NCBI RefSeq assembly: GCF_963675165.1
Contig: NC_087381.1
Location: 4,527,378-4,591,377 of the forward strand
Source of the DNA: Halichondria panicea
Taxonomy: Eukaryota > Porifera > Demospongiae > Suberitida > Halichondriidae
Length of the DNA: 64,000 nt
Reading direction: 5' to 3'
The translations under genes and the position numbers were made by a program. The notes under the pieces are model-generated. The model saw only the letters and a list, made by a program, of their open reading frames with translations, had not been told where the DNA came from and searched no databases. Of this stretch, positions 16,726-54,871 are shown piece after piece. Position 1 is the first letter of the stretch; each line of letters starts with the position of its first letter.

Positions 16726-20215
<3,490 letters not shown>

Positions 20216-20619: not shown

Positions 20620-23600
20620 ATGAAGTTGCTGCTTGTTGTCTTGTCCTTGCTGCTGGGTGCTGCGCAGTGTTCTGGTGAGGGATGTGGAGGATATCCTAGC
20701 AACGATCCCTGCCTGCCTGGTGGAGTGTGGGATACTGTGCTGAAAAGGTGACTGTGCAGTGAGCTAGCTTTGCATGTGAATGTGACCATACAGCATCTGT
20801 TCTAAGACCACATACAGTAACACACACCTTAATTAGTGTGCATCGAAGGTCTTAATAGTTATCATCACTAGCTCTGTTGTGTGTCCTAGCCTAAAAAGTA
20901 ATGTGTGTTTTGCTTTTATGATCGAACTTCTGTTCAATGTATTAAACGAATGTTATTAACTGACAATACAGATGCACAGGCATAGACTCACAACCATGCT
21001 ACCAGTGCTATTCAGGTGACTACTGCAAGACCAAGGAGGACCCCCTGCAATGCAAACTGGCCTCTGTGGGGGGTAACCCGGTATACCTATCCGAGTACTG
21101 GACAGGGGGTCACTCCACTGAAGCCGAGCCTTGCACTCAGACACCAGGCCATTACAGGTGACTGGTTTATACATGTACATGCATGGCATGCACACTTTGC
21201 ACAGGGTACATCGAATAGTTAGCTAATGCTATAATTATGGCTAGCAATAAGATTCAGAGGATTATTGTGGTCTTGGGGTTAGGAAGTGCGTAGGCGGTGG
21301 GCCTGCATTCATGGTGAGCAGCGGGAGATTATCATACACTGCATGGGACAGCTCTCAACACGGTAGCTGCCCTGTCCCTTTCCTCGGATGGAAAAAGAAG
21401 TGGCTTCCACACAATTCAGCACTAAAGAATGTATACATGATGAATTGGCTTTCTTTATGTACCCAGACCAGCCTACCAGGGCAACCACTACAGCACAAAA
21501 GTGGAGGAGAACATCTTCCCTCCTCTGAAGGAGGCCATCCTACAACTGCATAAACTGGTGAGTGGCTGGCTATTATCACAGTGCCATAATTATGGATACA
21601 TGTCATTGTGCTAATAATATCGTTAAAAGGGAAGGTTAGAGAGCAAATACATGAGATCCTTGGAAAATGTGCTAGCTAGTGAAGAAATACTAAGAGTTTC
21701 AGATCTCAATTTCTATACATAATAATTATTATCTAAAATGCATTGTAAGTAAGTACATGCATGTATATAAAACTACATGTACATACCGTATATACTTGAT
21801 CAGCTAGGAGCCGCGGCTACTAAATGTTTCATTTTGCTGGAAGAGGAGGCTACAATTTGAGAGAAGCCACTGTTCAAGAGAGGTGTATTAGCCCCAGCTA
21901 TAATTCAATAACCTTTAGTTGTTCATTAAAAGTTCTTTTCACCTGCATAAACTTGAACTCAGCCATGAGAAAGTCATTGTGAAGCACTAACAAGCTGCTA
22001 CCTGTACCTATAGTAGCTACGTACATGTAGCTAGCTGCTAGTATTAATAATTTTTTTGGCTGCTACGTGCAAAAAATATGCTAAAGTCAAAGTTCACTGA
22101 TGCTACTATTTGAGAGCGGCTACTAAATGTTTCATTTTGCTAGCAAGGGAGGCTACTATTTGAGTGCGGCCTTCATACAAGAGCGGCCTCTGATCGAGCA
22201 TGTACGGTAACTGTACATTAATTCATACTTATTTCTACTACTGTACTGTGACTCTGATCATACGTACATGTATGCATGTACACATTATGCCTGAAGCATA
22301 TTTGGAGGAGTCGATAATGTACCAATTTTTTCTATAGACTGGCAATGCTGAGACTGAGGGGTATTTCATGGTGACAGGGATGGGTGCTACAATGGTGATA
22401 CACTCCGCTCTGGCTGTTATCTCTAAAAGAATACTACAGGTACTTATTATTCTAGCTACCTTATTGTTACTATTATAAACGGGTACTAATTTTAGCGAAT
22501 TTTAGCGAATTTGTAATTAATGCTAAATTAAGTACGCGCTAATAATAAAACGCAATTAAAAATTATGAATCTCATTAAAAAAATATATATTATTATATGT
22601 TTTTCTGATGTACTTTTGAGAGTATTGCTAAGCAAGCTAGCCCTTTTTTCATCTGTATCTGACTCCAAACTTTCCATTCAACCTTAAAACTCGTATACTT
22701 GCATGTATATGCATCTTTTGACTATATTAAATTTGCTACAAATCCGGCAAAAAATTAGTACCCTAAAGACAGAGAAAAATCTGAAAACGCTAAAATTACT
22801 ACCCGTCTATAATAGTAACATTAAGGTACATGTATAGTCAGTTCATGTACGTTCATGTATATGTAGGAAATGTATCCTCGTGTCGTTTTTGTTGTGTTCC
22901 TTTCTTTAATACTGAATGTGGTACCGTGACGTGTACCTATTAGCACTGCGAAAAGACAGTTTGCACATGACTCTTCAACATGCAGGAATGCAGTAGCTCC
23001 TTGGAGGTGTGTCCCACTGCAGTGGATGTGTTTGCTCAAGCCCCTTACTATCCAGGTTATATTTTCATATCTAGTAACTGTCCCAACACTCGGTGGAATG
23101 CTTCTGCTGATCCTAACTCACCATTCACCATAGAGATACTGACGTAAGTAACTTCTCAGCTGAGTTAAGTGTATTTAATGATCGCCCCTCCCCCTTTTAG
23201 TTATCCTGATAACCCTAGTGGAGTAAAAAGAAACCCACTGGTGATGGACCCCTCCCGAGTGGTCATGGATATGGTCTACTATTGGCCAATGTACACTGAG
23301 ATTAATGCTAAACTAGACCACCCTCTCATGGTCTTCTCAAGGTACATATATCGTTTTCTATCGAGATTACGCCCACATCTGAAATTACGCCCACCCCCCT
23401 TTTAAGTAACGGTTTTTGCATATAGGCTAGCCTAATGTGCCTCAACAATACGGAGGAAGTGATGCCCAAGAAAAGGTTCAGCAGTTTTTTCTGTAAAGCT
23501 GGTTAGCTCTGAAGACAGCTATTTTATAATTATATCTAGATCCAAAAATTATTGCTCCGATTTGCGAGGATACAAGACAAAGACAATCTTATGAATCACT

Positions 23601-26600
23601 GTTGAAGATCGATCGACTCTGACAGTGACAAGGAACAACCTTCTGATGCAGACTCTTAACTTCTAGCCCATGCATTACCATAGCATGCAATTAGGATGGG
23701 CGTAATCTCGATAGAATACTGGGTACACATTGTAGATTACAGATGTTGTCTTTAGAAGTAGAACCTTTTTGGGAATGAATTCTCCCATTAATATTTCATT
23801 CAAATTTGTGAATACAGTGATTAGTGGCACCGTATTTCAGTTTTCAATTCAATTATAACTCTTACTCCCCCCACCCCATATACAAACAGCTCCAAGCATG
23901 GTGGCCTGGCCGGCACCAGGTTTGGCTGGGGGCTGGTGAAGGACAAAGACCTAGCTGTAGGCATGCTACAAGTGGTGGACGGGATCATGCTCGACTTCTC
24001 TATTGATGTTCAACTCAGGGTGCTTAATGGCCTGCAGGTCGTGCTAGGTAAGTTAGTTAGTCGGTCTGAATATCCATCCCATGGATCAATTACATAAAAT
24101 AGGCCACTCCAAATGAAACGAGTTTCAGGTCCTCTGTTCGCATTGCTTGTTATTTCTCTTATTATTATCAATGAATTAAATATTATTACTGAATTAAATT
24201 CAATGACATAATTATGTCACAAGTTTATAATGATAATTTTCATGGTAATGAATAATGAGATATAAAATATTAAATAATGGTTCCCGTCTGCATGTAATAT
24301 TACTAATTTATAGCAGCTTATAGCTTAACAGAAAAGTTTGAAATGGATGCTCCCTCAATTTATACTTGATTTTTCCATTCCCAGAGCCTGCCATCTAAAT
24401 TCGTGATTAGCTATACACCAGAAGAGGTGCGACAAGCTGTAATTACATTCCAGTTCACGTGTAGGCCTATGTTTTAATGCTGAGTCAGCTAATTAGAATG
24501 TTGCTCCTGCATGTCGTCACATAATTATTTGAAAGACAAAATTGCACCTTCATTACCCGAGACGTGTAGGCTGTCGTGGGCATTTACAGCATGAATATAT
24601 ACATGTACATGTAGCCTCAACATATTTTAATGGAAGATTTTGTTTTAAGAAGTTTAGCCCAGCTATAATTCAATTCGCTATACGGTATTTCTTTTCCAAC
24701 TCATCTCTAGACATGCTCTTAAATTTAGCACTTCAGTGACTGCATGCATGACTAATTTTTTTTTATAATAATTATAAAAAGGCTTAAAAGCCGCCACTAT
24801 ACTACAGTGAGCGCTTTCATGCAACTGCACAACAAAAATAACTAGAGGACTGAGGCCATCATACATGTCTAATAATATAATTTTTCTCTCCCTGTGCAGA
24901 AGAAGCAAACAAGACTCAGACACACAATTTCCCCTTCCATGAGTTTGGTCATGAAGTCATTTCGTCTCGTTTCAAGGGGGTGTCTGACCTATTTTCTTCT
25001 TGTCCTGGCCTCTCGCTGACCAATCAACTGTCTTCGACAGGGGGTTATGCGTGGATCATGTGCTCGGCTGGTATAATGGCTAACGGGTCATGTGAGCAAG
25101 TGCTGGAGAGGGTAAATCTGTATGGGATAGAAGGATCAGTTTTTGGAGCTATGGATAACTGTGAGTTAATTTGCTTGGCCATAATAATTATAATATTGTA
25201 CATACGTATATAGCTGTAATAATTGCCTAAGGGAGCTAGTTCGTAGTTTTTAATTTGATTATCGTATTATTTTCTTATAGGCGGCCATGCATGCATGCTA
25301 GAGCTAGCTGTTATTAATTATGCTTCGATGCCCCGGCCACTACGGTGACATGTTTGTGCATGCATGTGTATATAATTATTATTATTGCTCTAAGAAATAA
25401 TTATGCTACATTAATTCATAGATTGGAAGCGACTGCTCTAAGAAATAATTATGCTACATTAATTCATAGATTGGAAGCGACCGGGCATCTCTGTGTAAAC
25501 AGTTGAAACACTCCGCGTTACGATTTAGCGATTGCGAATATTTTCGTGGTTGACCGTTCTGACATTGTATTTAACTGTTTCTAGTTCTCCTATCCACTAG
25601 CAATCACTTGGGGCTGGAAGGTACTAGTAAGTTTACATCACTGACAAGCTCTAAGTCCGTTGTCTTTACTCTGTTTTTGAGTTTAGCTTGAAAGTTAGTT
25701 TAACTTTTTTCTTTCTGTGAAACCGAAACAACAAAGAACATTGCTTGGCTTGGTTGTTATGTATCTAAGTGCTATCATAGTTTGAAGAGTTAGAGGGATA
25801 GGGAACGATTAGTATCTCGAGTAACATCCGCGCTACACTGAGGTTTAATCGAGGCCATCACAACAATATATATTTCTACACTCAGTGCATAATAAACTAC
25901 AAGTAACTGTGCTTAGTCCGTACAACTCACTTATATTTCAAGGTCTATACCTATATTGTAGTAGTCATAACCAGCCCGCTTACACGTTATATGTTCCAAT
26001 AGCTCTAAAACAGCCTTGGGAACATATAACTTTATTGGAGAGTTTCTTTTTACTGGGTGTGGTCAGTCATTAGCAAGTACTACACGTGGCTCATGGACTA
26101 GGTGTGTTAATAAATTGCTAAAAGAGATGATGTCTCGAGGAAACACAGCTTTGGGAGTTACCTGACAAAAATGTGCTTAATAGCCTCGTAACGCGGATAA
26201 TTTTCGAGGCTCCACTGCAGATTCAATGCAAAATCATCACGTGCACCACTCCGTTTCCTATCCCTCTAACTCTTCAATCTATGGTGCTATATAGAATTAA
26301 TGGCTTCTTGCTATGGATAAGCTGTACTGTTCATAAACGCGTAGTATAGTCTGTAATAACAAAAATACTATGGGGGAGTGCCCCCAGACCCCCCATTATA
26401 GGGTCTGCGCACTGATAATTCGTAACATCCATTCATTCAGCATCCCCCTCCCCCAAATCCTGGCTACGGCCCTGCATGCTGACTATAAATAATATCTTTG
26501 TAGTTTTAGCCATGCACACCCTATAATATAGCGCGGAGTGTTTCACGCAAATATATTCGTTTTCAATCCCTCTTATATGTACGTTCTACATGTATCTATG

Positions 26601-26746
26601 ACCAATTATGTAAAGTATGCTCTTATCATGCCATGCACTTATATATAATTAATTGTACAGATGTGAGATTGTCGATGCTTCTACCTACTGTTGAGTTTGA
26701 CACCTTGTTTTTAAAACTGAAATATCTCTGCTCAATGTTGGGTTAA
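20620..26746 (+). CDS. Secreted alliinase / TAA1-TAR family PLP enzyme
   Basis: A fold-type I PLP enzyme related to plant alliin lyase (C-S lyase on cysteine sulfoxides) and tryptophan aminotransferases. Exons: 20620-20747, 20972-21157, 21467-21557, 22338-22439, 22986-23143, 23201-23341, 23890-24047, 24900-25160, 26661-26746; 436 aa, all phases fit. Residues 1-18 (MKLLLVVLSLLLGAAQCS) form a signal peptide. Residues 31-70 are an EGF-alliinase type Cys cluster (C31, C44, C52, C55, C61, C70). The catalytic part has AQAPYYPGY, N226-P-S-G229, D245 and Y248 in MDMVYYWPMYTEI, the Schiff-base lysine K271 in SSSKHGGLAGTRFGWG with R279, SYAW-like GGYAWIMC, and R411 in YVRLSM for the substrate carboxylate. 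These match garlic alliinase motifs (APFYPVF, SPNNPEG, YDMVYYWPHYTPI, SKFTGHSGSRFGW, RYVRLSL). Its substrate cannot be read from sequence. Confidence 0.92.
21784..22209. mobile_element. MITE in alliinase intron 3
   Basis: The left end TACCGTATATACTTGATCAG and the right end CTGATCGAGCATGTACGGTA are inverted with a few mismatches. Inside, 'gcggctactaaatgtttcat' occurs twice (about 21814 and 22117) as subterminal repeats. Confidence 0.65.
22466..22819. mobile_element. MITE in alliinase intron 4
   Basis: The 32-bp ends 22466-22497 and 22788-22819 are inverted (core TTACTATTATARACGGGTA) with two mismatches. The interior is AT-rich and non-coding. Confidence 0.75.
23356..23716. mobile_element. MITE in alliinase intron 6
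   Basis: TTCTATCGAGATTACGCCCA at 23356-23375 is exactly inverted at 23697-23716. Non-coding interior. Confidence 0.75.
25386..25481 (+). repeat. 48-bp tandem duplication
   Basis: Two copies of a unit starting 'tgctctaagaaataattatg' in the last intron of the alliinase gene, apparently identical. Confidence 0.85.
25773..26285. mobile_element. TIR element (TIR CATAGNTTGAAGAGTTAGAG)
   Basis: About 30 bp at the left end ('catagtttgaagagttagag...ggga') is inverted at 26254-26285. A related element with 'gaatggataggaaac' ends occurs at 41373-41928. It sits in alliinase intron 8. An outer inverted pair, 'gaaacactccgcg' (25505) and 'cgcggagtgtttc' (26532), brackets it. Confidence 0.65.
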
Positions 26747-39673: not shown

Positions 39674-41137
39674 TTAATAATTGTATAAATTGCTGCACAT
39701 ACTGGTAATATAAATATCCAACAAATCAGAACGACCAGATAGTTTACTGTCTTCAGCACAACTCTTACATATGTCGGGACTAAAGAATGGTGCATTCCGA
39801 TAATGATACAGCAGTCCTGTGGTGGGTGCCACAGAGTTCATATTGTATCCACCCACGTAGCGTGCCACAGAGTGTATGCTAACCATGTCAACATTTTGCG
39901 GTTTTACGATAAATTTCCATCTTCCGAGGCCAACTGTTTCGGGTATTGGAAATGGTTTAGTCCGATACGTGTTTGTTACGAACTTAGGCTTTTCCACCTG
40001 TACACTAGAATTTGGGCAAGTATATTTGCCATATTGTTCTTTACCAGGGGTTGTCATCATAGCCGAGTGCTTGAACTGGAATGCTCCAACTTTGCTTGAA
40101 TCTATAGATGAAACCATATCGATAATGTTTGTGTGAGACTGGGGGACAATTACCTCGTCAATATCAGTCATAGCAAGGTACTTAACACGATGCATGTTAC
40201 GATACACACAATCCCGAATGGCCAGCAGTTCACCATAGTAACGCAAATCATAATAGGTCAACTCAGATACTGTCATATTGATGGCTTCGATGAGTCCTAG
40301 TGTTTCATACTCCTGAATAACTTGCATAACTTCGATCGAAGGATTCTCACGGTAGTACAGGGTAAACCATTTTGCACCCAAAACACGGTACCTTTCTACT
40401 GCCTCCACAATCACTTCCCTTTTCCAGCTTGCAGCCTGATAGAGTGGTGACTGAAAGCAAACCCCGAGGGGTACCTCTTTAACAAGTGGAGAGCCTGGTG
40501 TGTAATTTTCATACCTACTGTCTAGTATATCCATCCATTCAGTTCTCGGTGACTCACAGGTCGAGGAAGCTGATAGTATGACTTGAATAGGTAAGATATT
40601 AGAGTCCTCAAGCGTACAGGCAAAACGATGTGATAAACAACGTTTGCTACTATTTTCATCTGCTGCGCTAAGCTTTTCATTAAATGTTTCCTTAGTTAGG
40701 CACTTCTCACCACCATCTGGGTACTGGACAAGGCAGTAGTAGTGTGTCTCTGCTGCATGATGCTTTTGATACTGACATCCAAGAATTGCTACCATCCGTT
40801 GGCCTTGCCTGAAGTCGAAAAAAGCTGATACTATTTCCGTATTTTGACGAGTTGATACTAACACTGTTCCCTTGTATTCATGACGTAAAATCGTTGACTT
40901 GGGCTTATTATAACCACGTGTTGATGTTTTACTATCCATCGATGCAATGTTCGATCTTCTATTCTCAATTGTTAGTGAGTGTTGAAATTGGGCTTGTTCG
41001 ACTACATCTACATTTGGTGCTTCAGCAATAAATTTACTGCTGCGTTTTTCTCTATGCATCATGGACGTAAGAAAGTAGTAAGGTAGACACAGCACACTCA
41101 CAGTGAGTGCAACATACACTAGCTTTGCTCTCTTCAT
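39674..41137 (-). CDS. Glycosyltransferase family 92 (DUF23) protein, type II membrane
   Basis: A single-exon gene of 487 aa. GT92 enzymes such as worm GALT-1 are Golgi galactosyltransferases acting on N-glycan core fucose. Residues 1-5 are basic, residues 6-26 (LVYVALTVSVLCLPYYFLTSM) form a signal anchor, followed by a stem. The catalytic domain covers about 222-450: GVCFQSPLY, SWKREVIVEAVERYRVLGAKW, YDLRYYGELLAIRDCVYRNM, and the metal-binding DxD in MTDIDEV (D325, D327). The acceptor sugar cannot be predicted. Immediately upstream of the ATG the minus strand reads 'ttttcag', so a 5' UTR intron is possible. The stop lies 22 bp from the TPGS2 stop, so the 3' UTRs must overlap or be tiny. Confidence 0.88.
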   Translation of the reverse strand: MKRAKLVYVALTVSVLCLPYYFLTSMMHREKRSSKFIAEAPNVDVVEQAQFQHSLTIENRRSNIASMDSKTSTRGYNKPKSTILRHEYKGTVLVSTRQNTEIVSAFFDFRQGQRMVAILGCQYQKHHAAETHYYCLVQYPDGGEKCLTKETFNEKLSAADENSSKRCLSHRFACTLEDSNILPIQVILSASSTCESPRTEWMDILDSRYENYTPGSPLVKEVPLGVCFQSPLYQAASWKREVIVEAVERYRVLGAKWFTLYYRENPSIEVMQVIQEYETLGLIEAINMTVSELTYYDLRYYGELLAIRDCVYRNMHRVKYLAMTDIDEVIVPQSHTNIIDMVSSIDSSKVGAFQFKHSAMMTTPGKEQYGKYTCPNSSVQVEKPKFVTNTYRTKPFPIPETVGLGRWKFIVKPQNVDMVSIHSVARYVGGYNMNSVAPTTGLLYHYRNAPFFSPDICKSCAEDSKLSGRSDLLDIYITSMCSNLYNY

Positions 41138-41372
41138 CTGAAAACAATTGACGTATTATTATCACATAATTATAATAATAATAATTATGACAGGCAAAAT
41201 TATACATTATTATGTTTGGGAACCACTGCTTTGACAGGGTTTGTTCCATCTGTAATTAGGGTGTGGCATGGCTATGAATGATTTCGAAATCTTGTACGCT
41301 AGATCACCTATAGCCGGTCCGCGTCCTGTCATGAAGAAGTTCGTCTCGGGGGACCAAATAATAAAGGGCACA

Positions 41373-46602: not shown

Positions 46603-46980
46603 GTCAGTCAGACAAAGAGCGGTGAAACGTCGAAATAGTGCAATTTTTAAAATGAAAATATTTATTCATTAAAATGTTTATGGATTATGAAATGAGAGAT
46701 ACAAAGAGAGAAAAGGCTAAATAAACTATCTGTTCAGCCAGTTTCTTGATGTGGCCTTTCCCTGCAGAGATAGAACAGTTTGAACATGAGTCAAAATAAT
46801 TGAAATATTGCTAAACACAGGCAAACCCACTGCCAATCCTATGTAAAACCTACTGGTTTTACTAATACATGTATTATAATGATTGTAGCATGTGACATTT
46901 GGGATTTTCCCTTTGATCACATGAGTCCCTACATATCCATTTTTATATTAGATCCACAAGATCACTGTTAAAACTTAATT
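46008..46980. other. Region upstream of the TRIM-like gene
   Basis: Contains AAGATGGCGGAATTGTCTAG|GTAAGA at 46393-46418: a YY1-type AAGATGGCGG box with an ATG and a strong donor, possibly a promoter plus a 5' UTR exon for the downstream gene. A (CTTA)n tract at 46562-46602 follows a segment that could be the tail of a SINE or LINE remnant. Confidence 0.35.
46562..46602 (+). repeat. (CTTA)n microsatellite
   Basis: Ten tandem CTTA units. Simple-sequence tails of this kind often mark the 3' ends of non-LTR retrotransposons, but no element body is recognisable. Confidence 0.9.
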
Positions 46981-48825
46981 ATGGAAGATCTAACTTGCAC
47001 TGTGTGCTGGGACGTCTACACAGCCCCGAAAATTCTACCTTGCTGCCACTCGTTTTGTCTAAAATGTTTGCAAAGGATTGTTAACAAAGACCAAACACCA
47101 TTAAGCCTAGATCCACCAACTTGTGATCAATCCGAGGATCCCTCTCAGCCCTTGATAGCAAGAATCACACCATGCCTTGAGGAAACTGAAAGTGACGAGC
47201 AAGAACTAGCATATAAAAAAGACGGTAACATGTTTCTTCCGAGAGAATATGACACACTGAAAGATGATACTACAGATCTAGCCTCGACTCTAGCCCCTTG
47301 TAGCCTCGACTCCAGCCCCTTGAATAGCCTTTCTCAGCGGCTTGAAATCGAGGCTACTACAGATCTACTGTTCCCCACTAAATCAGAAGAACTTACCGTT
47401 GACCATGGAATGTTAAGCGAAATTGAGATCACATGCCCTGTGTGTAAAGAGAAGCATGTTTTGGCTGCTGGTGGGGTTAACGGCTTAGCAGATGACTGTG
47501 AAATTAACTGCAGGCTTGAGCAAAGGAGTGTACAGCAATCACTGACGAATAAAGCATTTCAATGTGCCCTCTGCTCTAGTGAGGATGCCGTTACACTCTA
47601 CTGCCCTGATTGTGGGTTCTTGTGCGACTTTTGTGCTGGCGCTCACGAAAGGCAGTCCCAATACAAGGGTCACCATAGTAGATCATGTGACGAGCTGAGT
47701 TCCGAGACATTTATCGGCCATAAAAAAGCAAGAAATTGCGAACTGCACAATTATGCAGATTTCATATTTTTTTGTAATGACTGCAAAACAGCTTTGTGCC
47801 CAAAGTGTGTAGTAGGGGGGGCTGTAGATCACCGTGCACATGATTATGTTCAGCTGGAAGATTCCGATCAATACCATTCAGACCAGTCTCGCTCATTGAC
47901 AGAAGCTAGCAGGGACACTCTTGAGAAATACCGTCACTACAAAGATTATATTCAAAGAGTTGAGAAGGAATTCTTATCAAGCACACACTCAGATGTGCTG
48001 AACAAAACAATTAATGAGCGATTCGATTCCTACATTGAGATGATTCAAAAGAAACGGCAAGTACTCCTCGATCAAGTAGAAGAAGAATCTCTCTCATCAA
48101 AGAAGGCATTGTGGGCACAGAAAGAGCAAGTTGATCGTACAATCACAGCAATCGAGAGTGGGATCAAATTTGCCGAGCGAGTACGCACAGTACACAATCT
48201 TCTGGACCGTATTGAGATGAATTCACAAGTGATTGCTCGAATGAGCAGTGTAGACTCATCATGGAAGCCTTCTCGCATCAAGCCTCCTCTTGTTCTCAAA
48301 CCAACTGAGAAGTTTATACCTTCTCCTGTTACCCTCACAACAATTTCAGATTCTAATATTTCTCTCGAAACCGAAAAACCGTCCGTTTGTCAGCATGAAC
48401 TAGTGGTAGTAAAGTTTTCCATCCCACCCTTGAGTAAGCCACATATGCGAATCCTACACGGGAAATCACGACAAATACTGGATGAAAATGAAGTGGTATT
48501 CTATGATTCGGAGGAAAAACATTGCTACAACTTAGAGTTTGTGCCTCGAGTTGCTGGGGAGCATGTGGTTGTCATAGAGTTAGCTGGTACTCTAATTGCT
48601 GAAAAGACCTTCAATGTAACGGGGACACCTCGATATGGGAACACTGTCCAATGTGGGCCTGACTGGACTGTTGGGTTGCCAAGGAAACAGCTAGGTAGGG
48701 TAACAAGTCTGAGTAAGCAACTTGGATATGATGTAGTGAATGTAAAGTGGGGGGACGATGAAGAGACTTCACACATGTGGGGTAAAGATGGAGAGCATGA
48801 CATTGAGCTTGTCCCGGAACTTTAA
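46981..48825 (+). CDS. TRIM-like RING/B-box/coiled-coil protein with filamin-like and MIB/HERC2-like C-terminus
   Basis: A single-exon gene of 614 aa, a probable E3 ubiquitin ligase. RING first half: C6-x2-C9, C21/C22-x-H23, C26-x2-C29. The final CPVC pair lies far downstream at 152-155, because about 120 residues interrupt the domain. B-box 1 at about 195-240 (CALC...CDFCAGAH), B-box 2 at about 253-292 (CELH...CNDCKTALCPKC...DHRAHDY), then a charged coiled coil at about 300-410. Residues about 468-548 look like a filamin-type Ig repeat (LEFVPRVAGEHVVVIELAG). Residues about 555-612 (VQCGPDWTVGLPRKQLGRV, then VVNVKWGDDEE and GEHDIELV) resemble a MIB/HERC2 domain. Start chosen at the ATG just before the RING. 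The long linker inside the RING includes a 29-codon transposon insertion. Confidence 0.85.
   Translation: MEDLTCTVCWDVYTAPKILPCCHSFCLKCLQRIVNKDQTPLSLDPPTCDQSEDPSQPLIARITPCLEETESDEQELAYKKDGNMFLPREYDTLKDDTTDLASTLAPCSLDSSPLNSLSQRLEIEATTDLLFPTKSEELTVDHGMLSEIEITCPVCKEKHVLAAGGVNGLADDCEINCRLEQRSVQQSLTNKAFQCALCSSEDAVTLYCPDCGFLCDFCAGAHERQSQYKGHHSRSCDELSSETFIGHKKARNCELHNYADFIFFCNDCKTALCPKCVVGGAVDHRAHDYVQLEDSDQYHSDQSRSLTEASRDTLEKYRHYKDYIQRVEKEFLSSTHSDVLNKTINERFDSYIEMIQKKRQVLLDQVEEESLSSKKALWAQKEQVDRTITAIESGIKFAERVRTVHNLLDRIEMNSQVIARMSSVDSSWKPSRIKPPLVLKPTEKFIPSPVTLTTISDSNISLETEKPSVCQHELVVVKFSIPPLSKPHMRILHGKSRQILDENEVVFYDSEEKHCYNLEFVPRVAGEHVVVIELAGTLIAEKTFNVTGTPRYGNTVQCGPDWTVGLPRKQLGRVTSLSKQLGYDVVNVKWGDDEETSHMWGKDGEHDIELVPEL
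47281..47367 (+). mobile_element. 74-bp MITE-like insertion plus 13-bp direct repeat, inside the TRIM-like CDS
   Basis: TACTACAGATCTA occurs at 47268-47280 and again at 47355-47367. Between them lie 74 bp with inverted ends GCCTCGA...TCGAGGC, like the TAGCCTCGA elements at 35764 and 42521. Together 87 bp, exactly 29 codons (residues 101-129). The protein shows the repeat TTDL at 97-100 and 126-129. Confidence 0.75.
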
Positions 48826-49239: not shown

Positions 49240-49271
49240 AAAAACAGGCTCCCTAACCTACCTCTCGAAGA

Positions 49272-52200
49272 ATGGCAGCTTCTCTAGGACACATTGGCTC
49301 TTTTAACTCCACCGTCGAGGACTGGACTGGATACACAGAGCGCATAGGGCACTATTTCCTAGCTAATGGAATCACAGATGCTACAAAGAAACGCTCCATT
49401 CTGCTCACTGCCTGTGGGCCTACAACCTATCAACTCATCAGGGATCTTCTCTCTCCTGTCAATCCCACAGAGAAGTCGTTCGATGAACTAGTCGAGCTAG
49501 TCAAAGAACATCAAGACCCCGCCCCTTCAATAATCCTGCAACGGTATAATTTTTTCACGAGGAAGCAGCACTCCACGGAAAGCATTGCAGTCTACACTAA
49601 GACTCCCGGAAGTGTGTATTACACAGTTCATTTGCCAATTTATATGGGCCCTTATGGGAGATAATGATATTCATAGTTCGCAGTAGTATCAAAAACAGTA
49701 ACACTGCTTTTGTCAAGGATAACTTTTCACCAGTAGGTGCCTACCACTATTAAATGATATACAAATAATGCTGAATAAATAAGCTACTGAATAATATAAA
49801 AATTAAGTGGTAAAAAAGTACTGAATTGCTGCATTGTATGAAAGAAAACTGGTGATATTTATATTTTCTGTGACTTTGATTTCCGGGCAAATTAGTAATG
49901 GGGGTGCTGGAGAGATACAGATAGGCCTAGACTATAGACAACACTGGTAACTACAAGTAGACCAAATAAGAACACTAATGACCCAGGTTTGACTAAGATA
50001 CAACAAAGTAAACATTGACAAAAATGAGTAAGTTTAGCTCTTGCCTACTTGCCACTTGAGTGTCCAGAGTTTCTTGAAACTGCCTAGATAGCTAATATAA
50101 TGCTAGAAGTTAGTATTTGCAAAGAAATAAACAGCATCCGCTTTGCCAATATTTTTTTATAGCAGGTCTTGTGTTCTAACATAGGCCAGTTTATTGGATA
50201 TATCCTGTTTGGACTGACTTTGATTTCTGGGCAAATTAGTACTCCCCAGTTCTGGATCCTAATTTTCCTGTGGCCAGTTCATGAATACTATATCTACTAG
50301 TACTGTGACTCTGGAACCTGGCTTGCACTTCAGGACCTGGGTATTGATGCTGGAAAAACTGAAAAAGTTGTTTCTTTATCCAATTCTGATAGTAAACAAT
50401 GACGTAACAGAAGCCATAATTAAATTTACGGAGAATTACTGTAGTATTTACAAGCCACAAACAGGAAATTTACTCACTATGATGCAAACCACAATTACAT
50501 CATTTGAAGCCAAAATTGTAGTCTTAGTGTAGACTGATTGGGGATTTTGTGGCTCAACTGAGGAAACTCGCTCACCACTGCAATTTTGGTGACACTTTGG
50601 ACGACATGCTGCGAGACCGGCTCGTCTGTGGCTGCAGGGACCGACGCCTGCAATTTAAACTACTTTCCAATGCTGCACTAACCTTCAAGATTGCCCTTGA
50701 ATCGGCCAAGGCTGACGAAACAGCTGAACGTGGCACTAAGGATCTGGCTGGAGGCCACTCACTACACAAGATGTATGGTCAACAAAAACGGCGCACAAAA
50801 ACTTTTTCGACGAAGCCGCCCACTCGAACTCCTATGAACCAGCCGCCCACTCAATCTTGCTCTCGTTGTGGTGCTGCCCACTCCCCTACAACATGCAAAT
50901 TTAAAGATTTCACCTGCCACTACTGTCAGAAGCAGGGACATCTAGCCTCAGTTTGCAGGAAGAAGGCCCGTGACCAGACAGAGAAGAAGGGAAGTGCCTC
51001 CCAGAATCACCAGATACAGGCTCACAATTCTGACACAGAGGAGGAACCCTGCCCCTTGTGCTACTCCTCCACACCTCGGACCAAGCCTATGGAGGTAACA
51101 ATAACACTAGACAATGTTGAAACAGTTATGGAGTTAGACACGGGGGCCACTCTCTCGGTGATGTCTGAGAGCACGTACCAGACACTCTGGCCAACTGATG
51201 GTCGCCCCCCTCTTCAACCCTCCACGGCCCGACTCTCAACCTACACGGGTGAGCGTATTTCGGTGTTAGGACAGATAACCCTGCGTGTCTCCTTTCAACA
51301 GCAGAACCACAGTCTCTCACTGTTAGTGGTACCTGGTACTGGCCCTACCCTCCTAGGACGTGACTGGCTGGAGAAAATCAAGCTTGACTGGCAAAGCATT
51401 CACCAACTACGGCAGGTCACGCCTCAGCAGTCAGTACAGCAGGTTCTGGATCGCTACCCTGCTGTATTCAATGGGGAACTCGCCGAGATTGCTGGCTCCA
51501 CGGTTACGCTGCATATTGATTCCTCGAAGCAACCAAGATTCTTTAGAGCCCGACCTGTTCCCTACTCTCTGCGCACTAAGGTGGAAGAGGAACTCACACG
51601 ACTTCAAAACCAAGGTGTAATAAAACCTGTTACTTTTTCGGAATGGGCTGCCCCAATTGTACCTGTGGTCAAGCAAGAAGGGAAGATAAGGATATGTGGC
51701 GACTACAAGCTGACGGTGAACGCGGTAGCAAAGACTGACCCTTACCCACTCCCTCGAATCGAAGACATTTTCGCATCTCTCGCGGGTGGAAAGACCTTCA
51801 CAAAGCTGGATCTGGAGAACGCGTACCTACAGGTCCCCCTAACTGAAACTAGTCAGAAGTACACCACGGTGAACACCCACAAAGGACTGTTTCAGTACCA
51901 GCGTCTACCTTTCGGCATTGCCTCAGCTCCTGGGATTTTCCAGCGCACTATGGAAACCATCCTACAGGACCTCCCTCACGTATGTGTGTATCTTGATGAT
52001 ATCCTTGTTACAGGTGCAAGTGAGCGAGAGCACCTCACTACCCTCGAGGAAGTGTTTCGCCGCCTAGACAAGGCGGGAGTCCAGCTCAAGCGAAAGAAGT
52101 GCGAGTTTATGCTGCCCTCGATTGAGTACCTGGGACACCGCATCTCTGCTGAAGGGTTGCAACCGACTGACAGCAAGATCAAGGCTCTCAAGAATGCCCC

Positions 52201-54145
52201 AGTTCCAATCAACGTCTCTCAACTCAAGTCATTCCTCGGGTTACTAAATTACTACGGTAAATTTGTACCTAACCTCTCAACTGTTCTTGCCCCCCTCCAC
52301 AGTCTACTTCATAAGCGTACTGCCTGGACGTGGGACTCAACGCATCAGTCGGCATTCGATTACGTCAAGGACCTCCTGACCTCTGACACAGTACTCGCCC
52401 ACTATGACCAGACGAAGCCCCTGATACTCGCCTGCGATGCCTCTCCATATGGTATTGGCGCAGTACTCTCTCACACATTCGAAGACGGCTCCGAACGCCC
52501 AATTGCCTTTGCCTCTCGCACCTTAGGACCAGCTGAGAAACGGTACTCACAATTGGACAAGGAAGGTTTGGCAATTATCTTTGGGGTAAAATGGTTCCAC
52601 CAATATCTGGCAGGCAGGCATTTCACAATTTTGTCTGACCATAAGCCCCTCCAGCACCTATTTCAGGAAACCAATGGTATCCCTACCCTGGCCTCGGCAC
52701 GGATTCAGCGATGGGCACTCACACTTGGTGCATATGACTATGCCATCCGGTACAAACCTGGCACAGCTCATGCAAACGCCGACGTCCTCAGCAGACTACC
52801 CCTACCAGATTCATCCCCTACCGAAGAAACCCCTGGTGAGATCACACTCTCAATTAATATGCTGCAATCCATCCCAGTGTTGGCCAAAGATGTTTGCTCA
52901 TGGACTACTCGCGATCCGACTCTCTCCAAGGTTCGAACAATGCTATCCTCTGGCTGGAAGGAGTGCACAGACCCCGCTCTCAAACCCTTCATACAGAGAC
53001 GAGACGGACTCAGCCTCCACGATGGGTGTATTCTCTGGGGCTCTCGGGTCGTCGTTCCACAACAATGAAGGGAAACCGTACTGGAAGAACTACACGAAGG
53101 ACACCCTGGTATTGCCCGGATGAAAGCTCTGGCTCGTTCTTTCGTTTGGTGGCCTGGTATCGACAAAGAACTTGAACTGAAAGTGAAACAGTGCGAATCC
53201 TGTCAGAAGAACCAGTACCTCCCAGCAACAGCCCCGATACAACCCTGGGAATTTCCCAAGACACCATGGTCACGACTCCACATTGACTATGCTGGCCCGG
53301 TCGATGGACATATGTTTTTGGTGGTAGTCGATGCATACTCTAAGTGGCTGGACGTCCGAATCGCCAAGCAAGCAAACTCCCGAACCACCATTTCCATTCT
53401 CAGATCGATATTTGCTACTCACGGCATCCCTGAACTGATTGTATCCGATAATGGAACACCTTTCACAAGCTACGAGTTCCAGGCCTTCACTCAGTCAAAT
53501 GGCATCAGACACAACACGTCTGCACCCTATCATCCCGCAACCAACGGACAAGCAGAAAGAGCTGTCCAAACGTTCAAGCAATATCTCCGAAAAGCCACAG
53601 AAGGTTCCCTGGAAGACAGGTTATCTCAATTCCTGTTTAGGTATCGAATAACGCCTCACAGTACCACTGGCTCAGCACCGGCACAGCTACTGATGGGACG
53701 CCTACCCCGATCACGGCTGGACCTACTCAGACCGAATCTGCACAACAAGGTCCAACAACAGCAAGAACGTCAGAAGGCATACAAGGATAACAGAGCACCG
53801 ACTCGCTCTTTTGCCATCAACGATGCTGTATTAGTGGCTGATCTCCCCGCTCGAGATACCTGGCTGCCTGGTATCATAACCAAGATTCTCGGTTCGCGCA
53901 GCTACGAGATACGGTTAACGGACAACAGAACTATTCGTCGACACATTGACCATATCCGAACGAACTCTATCCCCAGGTCAAGGGACACTGAAGAACTCCC
54001 AACCGATTGGGTACCAAATCCCATGGTGGACGCACCTACACTGCCGTCTCCATCACTTCCGGAGAATCCACCAACTGATCCTCCTCCTCGACGTTCTGGT
54101 CGCACCTCCCGTCCTCCTGACCGACTGGTTGACCAGTACGCTTGA
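49272..54145 (+). pseudogene. Retrotransposon gag-pol polyprotein, disrupted
   Basis: Gag starts at ATG 49272 and is cut by the DNA element at 49588-50536. The frame resumes after it, because insertion plus duplication (953 bp) only shifts it out of register. Downstream: nucleocapsid knuckle CHYCQKQGHLASVC (about 50917-50958), protease ELDTGATLSVMS, RT blocks FTKLDLENAYLQVPL and VYLDDILVTG, RNase H DASPYGIGAVLS, then a TGA at 53066-53068 in frame. The same frame continues with the integrase HHCC region, catalytic D (HIDYAGP), D (VSDNGTPF), E (NGQAERAVQTF). No chromodomain is seen. With both breaks this copy cannot make a full polyprotein. Confidence 0.93.
49588..50536. mobile_element. 949-bp DNA element inserted in gag, 4-bp target duplication
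   Basis: TIR CAGTCTACACTAAGACT at the left is inverted at the right (17 bp). ATTG flanks both sides (49584-49587, 50537-50540). 'tttgatttc(c/t)gggcaaatta' occurs twice inside. There is no transposase, and I cannot assign a superfamily. Confidence 0.85.
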
Positions 54146-54645: not shown

Positions 54646-54871
54646 CCGTATAGCGCGAAATTTTCGAGGCACTTATATTTCGTGGATTGGCCTCTAAAAG
54701 CCATTTCGTTGCACAATGTTCGCGGAATGACTGCTTACCGGAAGCCACGCCTTTAAATCTTGCACGTTATAGCAGGTAAAGAACGATTTTCGTGGACTTA
54801 ATTTTCGTGTAGGATTGCTAACCCACGAAATCCACGAAAATTAAGCCCCTCGAAAATTTCGCGCTATACGG
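54646..54871. mobile_element. MITE family B, second copy (inverted relative to 18859-19100)
   Basis: CCGTATAGCGCGAAATTTTC at the left and its inverse at the right, with TA flanks. 'ggcctctaaaagccatttcg' and 'gcggaatgactgcttaccgg' match the other copy in reverse complement. Confidence 0.85.

Follow-up and report, generated by a model that had tools for sequence, protein, structure and literature searches.

Results

The window analyzed here, a stretch of 64,000 nucleotides of sponge genomic DNA, carries an alliinase-family gene on its + strand at positions 20620-26746. Nine exons, joined in frame, give 1311 nt encoding 436 amino acids and a stop codon, and the introns are GT-AG in 8/8 cases, with lengths from intron 1 to intron 8 of 224, 309, 780, 546, 57, 548, 852 and 1500 nt and a GC content of 37%, compared with 49% for the exons. 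An earlier reading made from the letters alone (hereafter, the sequence-only reading) had described a complete nine-exon gene; its coordinates proved exact to the base, the frame is open throughout, and the exon joins are supported by homology, frame and splice consensus. All exons lie on the + strand. Exon 1 (20620..20747) supplies the start codon, a signal-peptide-like segment (approximately residues 1-19) and the first cysteines, and exon 2 (20972..21157) encodes the cysteine cluster C44, C52, C55, C61 and C70 together with an EYW motif (residues 84-86). The large domain begins in exon 3 (21467..21557), which contains the Tyr108 region, and is followed by the GMGAT region of exon 4 (22338..22439), which we take to be the phosphate-loop side, the QAPYYPGY region and sequon N207 of exon 5 (22986..23143), and the residues N226, D245 and Y248 of exon 6 (23201..23341), presumably PLP contacts. 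The Schiff-base lysine K271 is found within SSSKHGGLAGTRFGWG in exon 7 (23890..24047), whereas exon 8 (24900..25160) encodes the small C-terminal domain with a Cys376/Cys386 pair and the sequons N325 and N383. Exon 9 (26661..26746) ends the gene with the stop codon and includes R411 within YVRLSML, an arginine that we assume to bind the substrate carboxylate.

Intron 8 contains a MITE-like transposon of approximately 510 bp (25776..26285, + strand) with terminal inverted repeats whose arms measure 32 nt. When 40 of 1046 candidates in the assembly were scored, its own copy among them, 39 further copies were found on 14 contigs at 93-96% identity, and the presence of this multicopy element within an intron places the alliinase-family gene in a host chromosome. 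A second, weaker inverted repeat lies outside the transposon (25504-25535/26514-26545), and the same intron includes a 48-bp perfect tandem duplication (25386-25481). Elsewhere in the window, inverted TAGCGCGAAATNTTCGAGG ends bound two elements, one at 18864-19095, by eye within an intron of HIF1AN, and the other at 54651-54866; a genome-wide count of this motif gave 540 + 547 occurrences, against 0 + 0 for its letters in reversed order. LTR-retrotransposon-like open frames occupy 49257-54145, where GC is locally raised, and by eye they appear gag-like, protease/reverse-transcriptase/RNase-H-like and integrase-like. The window also includes a glycosyltransferase family 92 gene on the - strand (39674-41155; one open frame of 493 aa, PF01697 E 6.8e-36) and a RING/B-box (TRIM-like) protein encoded by a single 617-aa open frame (46972-48825).

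The alliinase-family locus is situated 4.5 Mb along a long contig, C5, of which the window spans 4527378-4591377, with animal genes on either side. A Pfam scan of ten open frames in the window assigned a family in eight of them, namely Cupin_8, Ras, DEAD, WD40 (just under the cut-off), glycosyltransferase 92, B-box plus RING, fibronectin III and the MKLP1 Arf-binding domain. The flanking cupin frame is HIF1AN (E 4.4e-28), and the flanking Ras frame finds its best solved-structure match in Rab11B (E 2.4e-6), which marks a Rab-like gene. In 4-kb windows over the alliinase-family gene, GC ranges from 0.38 to 0.42, inside the range of the remaining window once the LTR-like element is set aside. 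A search of the host genome (131 Mb, 39 contigs) with the protein returned nine matches, one per exon and all from this one locus; no second copy was detected in the assembly at E<=1, with 9/9 candidates scored. The presence of silicatein identifies the host as a siliceous sponge, most likely a demosponge; a silicatein query gave 73 matches in the same assembly, among them a locus on contig C2 (658700-660500) with an exon containing GDCGASYAFSAMGALEGA that places Ser at the position of the cathepsins' catalytic Cys. Six of the silicatein matches, of 194-197 residues at 45-53% identity, are single open frames on contigs C6, C15 and C9, unlike the silicatein exons on C2, which are separated by introns.

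The alliinase/TAA family consists of vitamin-B6 enzymes that make the smell of garlic and the plant hormone auxin. The sponge protein matched the Pfam profile Alliinase_C (PF04864) with 195.1 bits (E 2.1e-57; cut-off 22), its residues 76-430 covering profile positions 5-361 of 363, and it scored 18.2 bits with Aminotran_1_2, just under the cut-off of 19.7. Since the PF04864 cut-off is permissive, being exceeded in 3/14 control genomes, all three of them prokaryotes, it is the score margin and the ranking of PDB structures that carry the weight for family membership. In a search of solved structures with the single sequence, garlic alliin lyase appeared as two sequences (E 2.8e-36 and 3.4e-36) and Arabidopsis TAA1 at E 1.7e-32, the only matches after these being two interleukin-27 chains at E 0.23, which were taken as chance. 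The garlic alignment (2hor, E 2.8e-36) pairs sponge residues 49-430 with garlic residues 38-420. When a three-sequence profile was used against the solved structures, ordinary class I aminotransferases were far behind, the best at 1.7e-5. Both the PF04864 and the garlic E-values are far beyond chance, and judged by these comparisons the sponge protein is a member of the Alliinase_C (alliinase/TAA-TAR) family with its catalytic residues kept, which agrees with what had been read from the letters. K271, D245, Y248 and N226 are invariant in a three-way alignment of the sponge protein, garlic alliinase and TAA1, and R411 is aligned with the arginine of garlic YVRLS in the same alignment and with an arginine of TAA1 in a longer one, such that all five residues named by the sequence-only reading are at the positions claimed and aligned with garlic alliinase. 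The roles of the individual PLP and carboxylate residues come from the structural literature.

Across the entire protein, hydrophobicity over 11 residues peaks in the segment that begins at residue 3 (mean 3.07), and segments beginning at residue 11 or later reach at most 2.0. This signal-peptide-like start is in line with the signal peptide proposed previously, and the enzyme probably enters the secretory pathway; three N-glycosylation sequons are present (N207, N325 and N383). Seven cysteines follow the hydrophobic stretch, at residues 22, 31, 44, 52, 55, 61 and 70, and further ones occur as C97, C171, C178, C201, C356 and C432. The sponge cluster reads C52-x2-C55-x5-C61-x8-C70 versus C41-x2-C44-x5-C50-x6-C57 in garlic, with different cysteines upstream, and its last cysteine lies 15 residues ahead of the EYW tyrosine (Tyr85), the same distance as in garlic. 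As a control, seven cysteines were placed at random in the same stretch 200,000 times, and a comparable arrangement arose in 145 placings, where comparable means a last spacing of 4-8 and an end 14-16 residues before Tyr85, the allowed spacing having been widened after a tighter first pattern missed the observed one. The EGF_alliinase profile (PF04863) gave no match to the sponge protein at E<=10, and among 22 candidates scored in the host genome it gave 8 matches elsewhere, none of them above the cut-off and none on the alliinase-family gene. The previously proposed EGF-alliinase cysteine cluster is therefore only partly supported: the cysteine spacing is partly similar to that of garlic, PF04863 is unmatched, and the N-terminus is best described as cysteine-rich with a partial garlic resemblance that falls short of a demonstrated EGF-alliinase domain. 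Near the other end of the protein, the pair C376/C386 faces garlic C368/C376, which we take to be joined by a disulfide, and it is absent from TAA1 in the alignment. Like the hydrophobic start and the sequons, the cysteine cluster and this pair are signs that point toward secretion.

Over the 229 columns common to the three proteins, core identity is 30.6% (70) between sponge and garlic, 34.5% (79) between sponge and TAA1, and 44.5% between garlic and TAA1. This comparison comprises three sequences (sponge, garlic and part of TAA1) as pairwise identities with no outgroup, and hence no tree, yet the sponge enzyme falls outside of the garlic/TAA1 pair, which fits an old eukaryotic lineage, unlike a recent land-plant gene. 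Among the automatically annotated genes of cnidarians and sponges, labels such as "tryptophan aminotransferase-related protein" are in use. By title and abstract, the literature on alliinase with sponges yielded no animal gene; published sponge members may nonetheless exist, and nothing was found on tryptophan aminotransferase or related proteins with coral or choanoflagellates. Using a method best suited to close relatives, 103 + 8 stretches of prokaryote genomes and 10 + 0 of viral contigs matched a pattern, with no relative confirmed in either, and plasmids gave no match to the protein. The alliinase domains mentioned for Legionella in the accessible text of PMC7542358 were not among the prokaryote search returns.

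Discussion

The alliinase-family gene described here is native to the sponge genome. The sequence-only reading had argued against contamination, and this holds: there is one locus, its neighbors are HIF1AN and a Rab-like gene, the host encodes silicatein, and a multicopy host transposon resides in intron 8, all of which makes plant or microbial contamination very unlikely. Contamination by a plant or alga, or recent horizontal acquisition from one, might still be suspected from a 2022 review, in which the tryptophan aminotransferase clade is said to occur "almost exclusively in plants" (PMC9309667), as well as from the transfers proposed within the alliinase/TAA family (PMC4754409) and for Legionella (PMC7542358). 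We give this explanation very little credence, given that the locus lies on a long contig between animal genes, that a host transposon has inserted into intron 8, that the GC of the gene (0.38-0.42) is within the range of the window, and that by identity the protein stands apart from the garlic and TAA1 enzymes. It is conceivable that the gene derives from an old transfer out of a lineage that has yet to be sampled.

A plant-type enzyme in an animal had been presented as a surprise by the sequence-only reading. There is indeed a family member in an animal genome, but the surprise is reduced, as TAA1 homologues are already in print from the choanoflagellates Salpingoeca rosetta (XP_004988548) and Monosiga brevicollis (XP_001746485), a Capsaspora sequence is discussed in the TAA/alliinase tree of the same 2016 study (PMC4754409, in the portions available), and alliinase domains, presumably acquired, are mentioned for some Legionella species (PMC7542358). 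We therefore consider the sponge gene to be a new member of the alliinase/TAA-TAR family, which has already been reported in the unicellular relatives of animals, and, as the identities and the choanoflagellate homologues suggest, it was probably inherited from the holozoan ancestor. Under one rooting described in PMC4754409, transfer from plants to an "Ichthyosporea" sequence is possible; this sequence may be the Capsaspora one, and a plant origin for it would weaken the argument for a holozoan ancestor. The origin of the plant TAA/alliinase family is itself under debate, and the published work on this question, in the text accessible to us, uses few holozoan sequences (PMC4754409, PMC5611494). 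The cysteine-rich, secreted-looking plan of the sponge protein suggests that this architecture may have come first, the cytosolic auxin enzyme being the derived form.

Regarding function, we lean, if only slightly, toward a long-resident, apparently single-copy gene of holozoan inheritance that would encode a secreted fold-type-I PLP enzyme acting as a C-S or similar beta-lyase. Such a protein would be exported via the secretory pathway and fold with disulfides, and PLP would be bound on Lys271. An L-amino acid would be held by Arg411, its alpha-proton would then be abstracted, and elimination of the beta-substituent would yield aminoacrylate (pyruvate and ammonia) together with a sulfur leaving group. 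It is after alpha-proton abstraction that the two known chemistries part, garlic alliinase proceeding by beta-elimination of sulfenic acid and TAA1 by transamination. Of these, we find the lyase somewhat more likely for the sponge protein, since a secreted lyase would have no need of a keto-acid partner. Against the lyase, TAA1, an aminotransferase, shares slightly more core residues with the sponge protein than garlic alliinase does (79 vs 70 of 229). In addition, the position of garlic Ser63, which along with Gly64 presumably belongs to the substrate end, reads as Gly76 in an EYW-anchored alignment or as Ser74 with a two-residue gap, so that an alliinase-like pocket is conjectural. Three bryophytes have TAA-clade proteins that retain the alliinase (EGF) domain, as described in the available text of PMC5611494, so the secreted plan alone fails to separate the two clades, and the literature searched, much of it as partial text, gave no cysteine sulfoxide from sponges.

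Two other accounts of the protein were weighed. It could be a secreted or lysosomal aromatic aminotransferase resembling TAA1, producing indole-3-pyruvate or related keto acids, which we hold to be possible and on the doubtful side. Its identity to TAA1 (34.5%) exceeds that to garlic (30.6%) over the same 229 columns, a G-N-P, as read near the substrate end, resembles the G-D-P of TAA1, and the bryophyte TAA-clade proteins retain the alliinase (EGF) domain (PMC5611494, as excerpted). However, an extracellular transaminase would require a keto-acid acceptor, TAA1 shows neither the cysteine cluster (its alignment begins at residue 25) nor the C-terminal cysteine pair, and the gap in identity amounts to 9 residues of 229. 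If the protein were instead a family member with altered catalysis, having a non-enzymatic or very different role, this would be compatible with a substrate end of G76/G77/N78 versus garlic S63/G64/D65 in the EYW-anchored alignment and with several further cysteines (C97, C171, C178, C201, C356 and C432), but none of the five named PLP and carboxylate residues has been lost and all nine exons read as one open frame, making this a quite improbable account.

The secreted beta-lyase that we prefer invites an ecological extension, in which a garlic-family C-S lyase, secreted by the sponge, would act on a stored sulfur amino acid upon tissue damage, forming a two-component, volatile-sulfur defense of the sponge. 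We consider this extension unlikely; if true, it would be a chemical defense in an animal that parallels that of garlic. The "garlic sponge" Lissodendoryx isodictyalis, which is described as having a garlicky odor and a surface without fouling organisms (PMC9032870, in the part available), would be a natural place to look for a garlic-type defense. Regardless of its chemistry, the sponge gene offers a candidate, open to testing, for sulfur or indole chemistry that is made by the animal rather than by microbes, and it is well suited to enzymological study and relevant to the debate over how auxin synthesis arose.

Among known systems, shiitake (Lentinula edodes) has a lyase that acts on cysteine sulfoxides with the aid of PLP; by the account in the accessible text of PMC4460571, this enzyme is a relative of cysteine desulfurase without the conserved alliinase residues, and is therefore unrelated to the sponge gene. 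The proteins of Salpingoeca rosetta, Monosiga brevicollis and Capsaspora share the TAA/alliinase family by published description (PMC4754409, in part). The streptophyte-algal and TAR3/TAR4 proteins, composed of Alliinase-EGF and Alliinase-C, are similar in joining a cysteine-rich N-terminal part to Alliinase-C (PMC10015382, in the sections available), whereas the sponge N-terminus goes unrecognized by EGF_alliinase, the comparison being one of descriptions; TAR3/TAR4, the plant proteins closest in plan, are themselves of unknown function according to the accessible portions of PMC10015382 and PMC9309667. Arabidopsis TAA1 (PDB 3bwn, 3bwo) shares the family, the PLP residues and 35% core identity, and differs in an alignment that starts at its residue 25 and shows no cysteine cluster and no C-terminal cysteine pair. 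The Arabidopsis-type plan, Alliinase-C without a cysteine-rich N-terminus, is accordingly not that of the sponge protein with its signal-peptide-like start and cysteine-rich N-terminus, although bryophyte TAA-clade members with a cysteine-rich N-terminus (PMC5611494, as excerpted) mean that this plan is not a strict criterion. Garlic alliin lyase (PDB 2hor, 2hox, 1lk9) is set apart by 31% identity, a cysteine spacing of 2-5-6 versus 2-5-8 in the sponge, other upstream cysteines, a Ser63 whose position is not clearly kept in the sponge, and the lack of a PF04863 match in the sponge protein. Despite these differences, the two belong to the same family, align over nearly their full length, and have in common the catalytic residues, a similar cysteine cluster and the C-terminal cysteine pair.
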